Source: Exiguobacterium sp. 9-2 (GTDB taxonomy: Bacteria > Bacillota > Bacilli > Exiguobacteriales > Exiguobacteriaceae). From it: 64,000 nucleotides of DNA. The notes beneath the pieces were generated by a model that saw nothing but the letters and a program-made list of their open reading frames with translations, was not told the DNA's origin and made no database searches. Shown here piece after piece: positions 41,770 through 54,582 of the stretch. Each line of letters begins with the position of its first letter. Position 1 is the first letter of the stretch. The stretch covers positions 894,001 to 958,000 of the forward strand of contig NZ_CP142850.1 of NCBI RefSeq assembly GCF_036287235.1, given 5' to 3'. Position numbers and translations under genes: made by a program.

Positions 41770-42492
41770 TTGATTAAAGTCGGGATAGCAGATGATAATC
41801 GCGAAATGGTCGAACTGATTCGCCAGCATATCTCTGCGCAAGAAGACATGGAAGTCGTTTGCGTCGCCTACAATGGCGAGAGTTGTCTCGAACGCATGAA
41901 AGAACATGAGGTGGATGTATTGCTCCTCGACATCATCATGCCTCATTTAGATGGGCTTGGTGTGCTCGAAGAATTGATGAAGAAAAAGAAGAATCCTGCT
42001 GTCATCATGTTGAGTGCTTTCGGTAAGGACGAGGTCTCACAACAGGCGGTCACCCTTGGAGCATCATACTTCTTACTTAAACCGTTCAGCATGGATCAGC
42101 TCGTTCAAAAAATTCGTCTCGTGACGAATCAAGGACAAGCTCCGGCGATCGAAACGATTGATCTAAAAGTCGGCTCGACGCTTCGAGAAGTGGGGATCGC
42201 TCCGCATATCAAAGGGTTTACGTATTTAAAAGACGCTGTCTTAATGGTGCTTGAACGGGAAGATCTACTCGGATTGATCACAAAGGAACTCTATCCGACG
42301 ATTGCGAAAAAACATCAAACAACAGCTTCTCGCGTCGAACGAGCGATGCGTCATGCCATCAAGTCCGCCTGGAACGAAGGAATGCAGCAACACGAGTTGT
42401 TTAACGGTCGGATCGAACAAGAGAAGAGTCCAAAGAACTCTGAATTCATCTCGTATGTATCGAGTCATATGAATCAAGAACAATCCGGTTGA
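41770..42492 (+). CDS. spo0A: Response regulator Spo0A
   Basis: 240 aa. Receiver: Asp8-Asp9, phosphoacceptor Asp54 (LLLDIIMPHLDG), Ser82, Lys104. The C-terminal effector domain has the Spo0A-only sequence HIKGFTYLKDAV, ELYPTIAKKHQTTASRVERAMRHAIKSAW (recognition helix) and NSEFISYV. Start must be TTG at 41770, because the stop of recN is in the same frame two codons earlier; the receiver strand then begins MIKVGIADDN. AAGGA abuts the TTG, so the working SD may be the earlier GGGGTG. Master regulator in sporeformers; the role here is unclear. Confidence 0.93.
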   Translation: MIKVGIADDNREMVELIRQHISAQEDMEVVCVAYNGESCLERMKEHEVDVLLLDIIMPHLDGLGVLEELMKKKKNPAVIMLSAFGKDEVSQQAVTLGASYFLLKPFSMDQLVQKIRLVTNQGQAPAIETIDLKVGSTLREVGIAPHIKGFTYLKDAVLMVLEREDLLGLITKELYPTIAKKHQTTASRVERAMRHAIKSAWNEGMQQHELFNGRIEQEKSPKNSEFISYVSSHMNQEQSG

Positions 42493-42648: not shown

Positions 42649-43233
42649 TTATATTTGATTCTTATTTCGTTCATAGCGAATGATTGACACTCCGTTATCA
42701 AACGTGTGTTGTTCCATGACGTTCCAAGTGAGGGGAACCATTCTTTGATCGGGAAAGAGACGCTTACCGGAACCGATGATGACAGGATAATGGATCAAGC
42801 GAAGCTCATCGATCAAATCCGCTTGATAAAGTGTATGAACGAGTTCACTACTGCCCCAGATATGAAACGGTGGGCCATCCTGTTGTTTCAAAAGCTTTAG
42901 TTCAGAAGTCGGATGCTTCAAACAAGTTGTCGGCTGCCAAAGGACAGGTAGTGCATGACGCGTAGCGACATACTTCATGGCATGATCGGCAATCGGCCAG
43001 ACATCTGAGTGGAGTGGCCAATAACTTGCCCATTGTTCGTAAGTCGCTCGACCGAGCAACAGAGAGCAGTCCTCATGCATCCATCCGCGAATGACTTGAC
43101 CGATCTCAGGATGTTGAAAAGGAACGGTCCAGCCACCATGTTCGAAATCGTTGTTTACATCCTCCTCCTTTCCACTCGGTGCTTGAACGACACCATCTAA
43201 AGATAGATGTTCGAATACGATGACTTTTCGCAT
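42649..43233 (-). CDS. Dihydrofolate reductase-like (RibD C-terminal) protein
   Basis: 194 aa. N-terminal MRKVIVFEHLSLDGVVQAP and GRATYEQWASYW, then a late YPVIIGSGKRLF, are typical of the YyaP/YwjB RibD_C family with a DHFR-like NADPH-binding fold. Substrate unknown; unlikely to be true DHFR. Start at MRKV, with AAGGAG 8-9 bases upstream. It is transcribed opposite to spo0A and away from the RNA gene. Confidence 0.85.
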   Translation of the reverse strand: MRKVIVFEHLSLDGVVQAPSGKEEDVNNDFEHGGWTVPFQHPEIGQVIRGWMHEDCSLLLGRATYEQWASYWPLHSDVWPIADHAMKYVATRHALPVLWQPTTCLKHPTSELKLLKQQDGPPFHIWGSSELVHTLYQADLIDELRLIHYPVIIGSGKRLFPDQRMVPLTWNVMEQHTFDNGVSIIRYERNKNQI

Positions 43234-43312
43234 ACAAGATCTCCTTTCGAATGCACTCTTTCTACAGCATACGGTAGAGGTCAAAAAAAATAAAAGCGTT
43301 TGCAAATAAATA

Positions 43313-43340
43313 TTGCATAAACTGAAATGTTTGTTATAAT
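43313..43340 (+). promoter_or_regulatory. Promoter of the large structured RNA
   Basis: TTGCAT, 16 bases, TATAAT preceded by TGT (extended -10 TGT-TATAAT). Among the best sigma-A promoters in the window, and no coding start follows on this strand. Confidence 0.8.
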
Positions 43341-43345
43341 AAAGG

Positions 43346-43903
43346 TACCAAATGATTTGGCAAGACGTCAGATGAACGTCGAGTCGGCGAGGACTCCGGA
43401 AATCCCGTTGATGAATATCATCTCAGAACGCCAACTGTAAATGGCTCAAGAATGCCGGACGACATTCTCTTGGTAGAAGTCGTACCAAGGTATCTTGTTC
43501 ATTCTAGATGGGAAATCTCGAATGAATGGGAGCTTCCATGATTTCGAAGCTAGGGAAAAGTGGAAGGTAACGGATCGTCTAAAATGAAAAGTACAGTTCG
43601 TGAAAAGGAGTGTTGTCTAGCAGTGATTGTTAGCAACCGAATGTTTGACTGCTTCAAGCGGATGACATTACGCTCCACCTAGGTCCCGAGTACAGTCAGA
43701 TGATGGAACTGAAATACCATTCTATCGTTAGCTCGATAGCCAGATCTGATTTCTTTCCACCTCTTCATTAAGAGGAACACCTAAGGTTTTGGAGTACACG
43801 AATAGTTCTAACTATGAGAGGAGTTCATCCGTAAGTGAAACCAATTTTATACGAGTAAAAGGTCCCGCGCTTGAAATGAGTTCAAGAGATGGGGACCTTT
43901 TTC
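43346..43903 (+). ncRNA. Large structured non-coding RNA, OLE RNA candidate
   Basis: About 555 nt with a promoter just before and a terminator at the end, and no convincing gene on this strand. Clear hairpins: CCAAA/TTTGG (43348-43360), GACGT/ACGTC (43364-43380), GAGTC/GACTC (43381-43396), TTGGTA/TACCAA (about 43470-43490), TTCATTC+AGAT/ATCT+GAATGAA (43498-43526), AGCTTC/GAAGCT (43531-43551), AGCAGT/ACTGCT (43619-43653). A three-way junction TCAGAT...ATCTGA (43696-43749) encloses ATGG/CCAT and CTATCG/CGATAG; then CCTCTT/AAGAGG and ATAGTT/AACTAT. OLE RNA is similarly large, occurs in Bacillales and lies near isoprenoid genes; the partner gene oapA is not seen. RNase P and tmRNA signatures are absent. 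Confidence 0.72.
43857..43903. terminator. Bidirectional terminator, structured RNA and DUF2627 gene
   Basis: AAAAGGTCCC/GGGACCTTTTT stem with an inner TTGAA/TTCAA hairpin. It ends the plus-strand RNA and the minus-strand gene. Confidence 0.9.
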
Positions 43904-43908
43904 TGTGT

Positions 43909-44163
43909 TTATTTTTTTTGATAGCGGTCGGAGACTTTTCCACGTTTTCGATCGCGATAAAAGACATATCCTGCGACAAATCCAATACCACCCATCGCAA
44001 GAATCAACCCAACGAGACCTTGCAATACATATACGTAAGCCGCATCGCCTAAGTATTTAAACGGCACTTGCGCAATTAGAAAGACACTGTCGCGCATGAG
44101 CTTAATACCAATCGCGCCGATGATGCCGGGGATTAATAATGAGAGCAAACCAATGATACGCAT
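43909..44163 (-). CDS. yqzF: DUF2627 family membrane protein (YqzF-like)
   Basis: 84 aa with two membrane helices (about residues 3-20 and 47-68) flanking GIKLMRDSVF, and a basic tail YRDRKRGK. Matches YqzF/DUF2627, which lies beside bkdR in Bacillus. GGAGTGG precedes the ATG. Function unknown. Confidence 0.85.
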   Translation of the reverse strand: MRIIGLLSLLIPGIIGAIGIKLMRDSVFLIAQVPFKYLGDAAYVYVLQGLVGLILAMGGIGFVAGYVFYRDRKRGKVSDRYQKK

Positions 44164-53985: not shown

Positions 53986-54008
53986 AAGAAACAATTCAAC
54001 ACACGATA

Positions 54009-54286
54009 GCAAAGACGAAGAGAAGTAACTTGTGAAACGATTTAAGAGAGCTGATGGGTGGTGTGAATCAGTATCGGGTAACAAGCGAATGGCCTTCCGA
54101 GCTTCAGACCGAATCCTTTAAGTGGGTAGTAGGCTCTGACGGGTTCCTCCCGTTATTGGGGTCGACGAATCAGGACAATGGTCCGGTTCGTTTCAAAGGG
54201 GACGATGTCAGCATCGTCAACGAAGGTGGTACCGCGGGTCTTCCCGTCCTTCATGTTCTACATGAATGGGCGAGAAGACCCTTTTC
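54009..54286 (+). promoter_or_regulatory. First tryptophan T-box riboswitch
   Basis: Stem I region with AGAAGTAA near the 5' end and the distal-loop segment GATGGGTGGTGTGAAT. The specifier TGG (Trp codon) is at 54090-54092 in GCGAATGGCC. The T-box AAGGTGGTACCGCG is at 54223-54236. Terminator GGGTCTT...AAGACCC then T4 (54237-54285). Uncharged tRNA-Trp would stabilise the antiterminator. Confidence 0.92.
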
Positions 54287-54310
54287 GTATACAATTGAAT
54301 CGAATAAATC

Positions 54311-54582
54311 GTAGAGTGAGTTAAGTAGCGAGGCAACATCGGCGTTTCAGAGAGCGGAAGAATGGTGCGACTTCCGTACGGCGAGGTTTCGTGAATGGTC
54401 TCATGAGAGCGTGGCTGAACGAAGAAGTAGGTCACGACGGATGCCCCCGTTATCGTAGGCTATGATGTCTCTTATTTAGACGCATCAGACAGAGTGGGAA
54501 CGGTCGAACCGTTCCAATCGAGAGGTGGCACCGCGAGATAATCGTCCTCCATGCAGCATATGCTGTGTGGAGGACTTTTTTT
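54311..54582 (+). promoter_or_regulatory. Second tandem tryptophan T-box riboswitch
   Basis: A separate complete leader: specifier TGG at 54396-54398 in GTGAATGGTC, T-box AGAGGTGGCACCGCGA at 54521-54536, and terminator GTCCTCCATG...GTGGAGGAC then T7 (54544-54582). Both leaders must be passed before trpE, giving two tRNA-Trp checkpoints. Confidence 0.93.

Follow-up and report, generated by a model that had tools for sequence, protein, structure and literature searches.

Few non-coding RNAs with a conserved fold exceed 500 nt, and the majority of the known ones have no settled function. GOLLD and ROOL RNAs are often phage- or plasmid-borne, while RNAIII of staphylococci, close in size to the RNA described here, has its own promoter and terminator and many hairpins. 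No report of the present RNA was found in the literature on Exiguobacterium or on large RNAs among the matches listed, and other papers may exist; nor did the literature searched contain a paper joining Exiguobacterium with 'OLE RNA'. In the accessible part of a transcriptome study of E. antarcticum B7, ncRNA reads are mentioned only as filtered out (PMC4247613), and an excerpt of a report on OLE RNA describes this RNA and the OapA protein as almost completely mutually inclusive (PMC11332333).

The window analyzed here is the whole 64,000-nt stretch of Exiguobacterium sp. 9-2 DNA in which an earlier note had proposed a large, ornate non-coding RNA with its own promoter and terminator, perhaps an OLE RNA. 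Signals for such a gene are present (Table 1), and alignment energies fall below tree-preserving nulls. The gene is flanked, as had been described, by two minus-strand genes (RibD_C and DUF2627), and the proposed extended -10 promoter (TTGCAT-16-TGT-TATAAT) was located, with TATAAT recurring in the upstream stretches of 37/37 Exiguobacteriaceae genomes. A strong terminator, with its stem and T run, likewise closes the gene and lies where it could also act for the convergent DUF2627 gene. That a conserved structured RNA gene exists at this position is, in our judgment, nearly certain, and it is a new RNA family, outside every RNA family catalogued in Rfam.

Table 1. Positions of the RNA gene, its control signals, predicted helices and neighbouring genes in the window
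Feature	Position	Strand	Remark
spo0A	41770..42492	+	upstream neighbour in 36/37
RibD_C-domain gene	42649-43305	-	between spo0A and RNA
cre-like element, one mismatch to consensus	43290..43304	+	just upstream of -35
RNA gene with promoter and terminator	43313-43904	+	Exiguobacterium sp. 9-2, 64,000-nt window
Promoter: TTGCAT (43313-43318), 16-nt spacer, extended -10 TGT-TATAAT (43332-43340)	43313..43340	+	sequence
Large structured non-coding RNA, ~560 nt	43344..43904	+	5' end placed from promoter
P1 hairpin CCAAA/TTTGG	43348..43360	+	closing pair A-U in g1, G-C in g2
P2 hairpin, loop CAGATGA	43364..43380	+	two pairs with both sides changed from g1 to g2
P4 enclosing P5 (GCC/GGC, pair C-G or U-A)	43418..43454	+	predicted
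P6 domain, long-range helix closing hairpins P7-P9	43458..43617	+	insert site in six relatives
P10 hairpin	43621..43651	+	predicted
P11 long-range helix CGGATGA/TCATCCG, closes 3' domain	43659..43831	+	predicted
P12 GCTCC/GGAGT and ACCTAGGT/ACCTAAGGT	43672..43795	+	predicted
P14 three-way junction, TCAGAT/ATCTGA with TGG/CCA and CTATCG/CGATAG	43694..43751	+	
P15 hairpin CCTCTT-CATT-AAGAGG	43760..43775	+	one pair C-G in g1, U-A in g2
Intrinsic terminator, stem 43857-43866 with 43892-43901, then T run	43857..43904	+	sequence
DUF2627 gene (PF11118)	43909..44163	-	convergent neighbour in 37/37

A blastn search of 61 relatives with a 605-base query detected the RNA in 37/37 genomes of the Exiguobacteriaceae, comprising 18 from genus g1, counting the window's own genome, plus 19 from genus g2, and in 0/24 genomes of other families; between the two genera identity is ~60%. 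Covariance models of the 5' part (R1) and the 3' part (R2) matched, respectively, 27/27 and 22/22 of the Exiguobacteriaceae genomes drawn, as well as E. sibiricum 255-15, Exiguobacterium sp. RIT594 and E. flavidum HF60, i.e. all Exiguobacterium loci among ten loci given to the models. Among 272 genomes outside the family, R1 gave two weak matches, at E 0.005 and 0.009, and R2 three in 228 (E 0.005 to 0.084), about the level of chance for that number of genomes, and the two R1 matches were rejected as relatives, since what they share with the RNA is hairpin P2 only, or scattered positions. The best values at 44 DUF2627 loci of other genera were E 0.16 (R2) and 0.23 (R1). Because samples of the class were scanned with strict filters, a distant relative may be missed; the best reading is that the RNA is specific to the Exiguobacteriaceae, with no convincing relative outside the family found in the sampled genomes. 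Candidate second copies within family genomes (31 nt in one genome, partial R1 matches in that genome and one other) were discarded as short matches or as a promoter with an mRNA leader behind it, and the gene is a single syntenic chromosomal copy in the genomes examined.

The cre-like element near the promoter was recognized against what we take to be the cre consensus. Its core overlaps the -35 in 19/19 g2 genomes, in which the spacer to the -10 is freely variable, lies upstream of the -35 in 9/18 g1 genomes and is absent from 9/18, and the window shows no enrichment of one-mismatch matches to the same presumed consensus (47 vs 38.2 expected). Control of the RNA gene by CcpA is a guess.

The minimum free energy (MFE) of the single sequence has z = -3.36, with 1/100 dinucleotide shuffles as good, and for eight members folded minus their terminator, among them that of the window, z ranges from -1.64 to -3.68. 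Each genus was given its own consensus fold, on alignments built with anchors, and alignment energies were compared with tree-preserving simulations, either free or column-rate-preserving (60 per null for each genus, 40 per null for all 37). Energies of the g1 alignment (18 rows; z = -9.2 free, -6.7 column-rate-preserving) and the g2 alignment (19 rows; z = -9.6 and -5.5) were reached in 0/60 simulations, and that of all 37 rows (z = -11.8 and -2.5) in 0/40, the 37-row result being modest under the stricter null. An alignment of relatives had been proposed as a check for covariation, and within each genus it revealed more pairs changed on both sides than the null: 21/159 in g1 against a mean of 4.3 (max 10), and 13/153 in g2 against 3.6 (max 8). 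The fitted structures pair in 98.7% of cells in g1 (null mean 82.0%) and 99.3% in g2 (94.1%); 0/200 simulations reached any of these four values, all of which are favoured because each structure was fitted to the same alignment on which it was tested.

Between genera, cells changed on both sides numbered 40 vs 14.5 and 36 vs 11.8 in shuffles (0/500 each), with 0 to 10 in slid controls, and the pairs concerned occur in P1, P2, P5, P14 and P15. The number of such pairs (5 and 4) was not above shuffles (reached by 91/500 and 481/500), because much of the change is one event at the g1/g2 split. An R-scape-like all-against-all covariation test with a tree null yielded no pair below E 0.57; of its four best pairs, two (E 2.0 and 2.5) are canonical, neighbouring pairs of P9. 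In an unbiased helix scan no helix exceeded the null. Compensatory change in conserved pairs is seen alongside non-significant results in both of these tests. Taken together, comparison across the two genera shows a conserved position and predicted structure, with substitutions that keep the pairing and a putative promoter and terminator of the gene's own.

Of the three-way junction claimed previously, relatives support the outer stem TCAGAT/ATCTGA (43696-43701 paired to 43744-43749), three pairs of which carry a change on each side from one genus to the other, as well as the CTATCG/CGATAG arm, whereas the ATGG/CCAT arm is not kept in several relatives; in its place TGG (43704-43706) with CCA (43740-43742) is kept in 54/54 g1 cells. 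P4 is strong in g2 and weak in g1 (probability about 0.2), P11, at a probability of about 0.6 in g1, reaches as much as 0.98 in g2, and the place of P12 is paired in g2 by different sequence (GACATGA/TCATGTC and CCGAT/ATTGG). The P2 loop is complementary to TCATCT near 43418 in 37/37, a possible pseudoknot. The RNA gene of six g1 genomes contains an inserted tandem repeat, CAAGCAAGAC or CAGCAAGAC, which matches 7 to 17 times in each and sits after P9 and before the 3' strand of P6, and a short stretch resembling this repeat is also present in another relative.

The conserved fold, the tolerance of inserts, the single copy and the presence of the gene's own promoter and terminator point to a structural RNA that acts in trans, most likely within a protein particle. 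Our preferred reading, which we consider rather probable, is a free-standing, non-coding structured RNA of ~560 nt that is specific to the Exiguobacteriaceae and acts in trans as the core of a ribonucleoprotein particle; that it is transcribed alone and trans-acting is what we infer from these features. Three domains would make up its putative architecture: one of hairpins at the 5' end, an insert-tolerant one in the middle with P6 as the closing helix, and one at the 3' end in which P11 encloses the three-way junction. The invariant single-stranded or junction segments CAGATGA, TTCTTTC, CTTCATTAAGA and GA(G/A)AGGAG would be presented to one or more proteins. The RNA would, by analogy, form the core of the particle, the amount of which might follow the nutrient state, perhaps via the cre-like promoter element. 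That the domain architecture outlives ~40% sequence change and repeat inserts in six genomes fits a folded particle better than a linear antisense RNA.

The main rival to such a particle is an RNAIII-like regulator that acts by base pairing, the hairpin loops of which would pair with target mRNA leaders, blocking or freeing translation. A size close to that of RNAIII, the gene's own promoter and terminator, and the presence in 37/37 genomes of short invariant segments, some of them G/A- or C/U-rich, all suit this explanation, but several of the invariant segments themselves lie inside predicted helices and a conserved peptide was not found, and we regard it as possible though doubtful.

A further reading arises from ambiguity of the long-range pairing. 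Minimum-energy folds of g1 and g2 agree in many hairpins and in the arms of the 3' domain (matches within two columns), and the g1 minimum-energy fold gives other partners to the strands of P1, P2, P6 and P11, helices that stand at ~0.6 in the g1 partition function and higher in g2. Two GAUGA-type strands (the P2 loop and 43661) and two UCAUC-type strands (43418 and 43825) are present in 37/37, and these may exchange partners; the differing folds may reflect prediction noise or a real switch. Since such alternative pairings are possible, the RNA may toggle between folds, and the locus could represent a new large, ornate RNA class private to the Exiguobacteriaceae, a switchable particle or RNA-only assembly that toggles via GAUGA/UCAUC pairing and perhaps serves a non-sporulating programme of the retained Spo0A. 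We think this unlikely.

Much less likely still is a dual-function or coding transcript, in which a short protein would start from GTG or TTG at 43623 and the remainder would be its leader. A start codon at this position (GTG here), with AAGGAG 12 nt upstream, is indeed common to 37/37 genomes, and the frame is open for 16-20 codons. The resulting peptides of 16-20 aa, e.g. VIVSNRMFDCFKRMTLRST and LNSLWQAFDFTMDGST, are however unrelated between genera and change freely within g1, the spacing between AAGGAG and the start is long, and the region is also hairpin P10. On these grounds a small protein at 43623 was rejected, and the original statement that no believable gene exists on the RNA strand agrees with the lack of a conserved peptide in this shared frame across the 37 genomes.

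Of similarly low probability is an explanation in which the locus is no independent RNA, only a long 3' UTR belonging to spo0A, or an antisense element that controls the DUF2627 gene. Its appeal lies in the surroundings, with spo0A on the same strand upstream in 36/37 genomes (directly so, at a gap of 86-229 nt, in 28/37) and the convergent DUF2627 gene 7-87 nt downstream in 37/37, followed by bkdR. Against it, the gene's own promoter is kept in 37/37, the opposite-strand RibD_C gene intervenes in 8/37, and in one relative spo0A is not within ~1.5 kb of the RNA; the terminator moreover ends before the DUF2627 stop, so that there is little overlap with that gene. Several other observations were made in this neighbourhood. 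The RibD_C gene insertion occurs only in the 8/37 genomes, and its real ATG start is probably downstream of the listed TTG start. In the relative with no spo0A within that distance, two frames at positions 1-1420 upstream of the RNA, counted in its orientation, take the place that spo0A has in the others and, read by eye, resemble IS transposase. The DUF2627 protein is 100% identical to records from E. indicum HHS 31 and Exiguobacterium sp. Leaf196. In the accessible portion of a report on E. sibiricum, spo0A (Exig_0912) is present, spoIIA and spoIIG are missing and non-sporulation is inferred (PMC2615787); Spo0A is thus retained in a reportedly non-sporulating genus, and its gene adjoins the RNA gene in most relatives.

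The OLE match suggested by the earlier note did not hold. The OLE model (RF01071) gave nothing in the region (801 bases) at E up to 10, nor in the genome. Because 14 standard control genomes were without a match, a scan of 250 Bacilli served as the positive control for the model; 63/250 matched and 62/250 exceeded the cut-off, at 470-578 bits, and none of these 62 belonged to the Exiguobacteriaceae, though at least 20 members of the family were in the draw. Reciprocally, models of the present RNA found nothing at eight OLE loci beyond one 11-nt match (E 1.7). The idea that oapA might lie elsewhere in the genome fared no better: the best match to an OapA query from an OLE locus (E 0.045, 22% identity) falls on a frame of 571 codons for a CNNM protein, one of four encoded in the genome when MpfA is counted together with the other CNNM proteins. 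At four OLE loci the order, read by eye, is ispA, OLE, oapA, dxs, whereas here ispA and dxs (identities read from translations) are adjacent, with a 118-nt gap and no RNA between them. The RNA does share with OLE a length of about 600 nt and dense secondary structure; OLE identity was rejected on the absence of a model match and of OapA and on a gene position not among ispA, oapA and dxs. An OLE RNA that has diverged very far, or a substitute for OLE, with OapA lost or swapped for another membrane protein, is strongly disfavoured and the least probable of all the explanations, in spite of the similar length, the Bacilli host, the ispA-dxs neighbourhood and four CNNM proteins (OapA being distantly related to the CNNM domain), in view of the blank model in region and genome, the negative reciprocal searches, the missing OapA and the closely spaced ispA-dxs pair.

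A different RNA class, the last alternative of the earlier note, is the one supported; the RNA matches neither OLE nor another Rfam family. At the gathering cut-off of Rfam 15 nothing was found in the region, and the window has only two T-boxes elsewhere, leaders that lie in tandem at 54003-54254 and 54303-54552. The region gave five weak matches, far below the cut-off, at E up to 10, and four relatives searched at E up to 1 gave one match to a miRNA model, outside the RNA. Running the RNase P, tmRNA and other large-RNA models, as had been advised, matched no family to the region, and RNase P (RF00011), tmRNA (RF00023) and 6S RNA (RF00013) were found elsewhere in the genome, at 322, 181 and 78 bits. 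Phage or plasmid origin was likewise rejected: the g1 sequence, the only query used, had no match among 50,697 records of phages and 72,556 of plasmids.

The absence of OLE in a lineage of Bacilli does not imply the absence of large structured RNAs. In a cultivable, non-sporulating and stress-hardy genus, where each examined genome has it as one syntenic copy, the RNA offers a genetically approachable system. With RNase P, tmRNA and 6S RNA, which are separate genes elsewhere in the genome, it has in common the character of long structured housekeeping RNAs. GOLLD and ROOL are, like it, large multi-domain non-coding RNAs of unknown function, whereas the RNA here is chromosomal and syntenic and has no Rfam, phage or plasmid match. 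RNAIII resembles it in length class, own promoter and terminator, and many hairpins, but the present RNA lies at a different locus and has neither an Rfam match nor a conserved peptide. From OLE RNA (RF01071) it differs in lacking sequence or model similarity and OapA, in its spo0A-DUF2627 rather than ispA-oapA-dxs locus and in its confinement to one family, while both are ornate chromosomal RNAs of about 600 nt, in single copy in Bacilli, and perhaps alike as the core of a particle.
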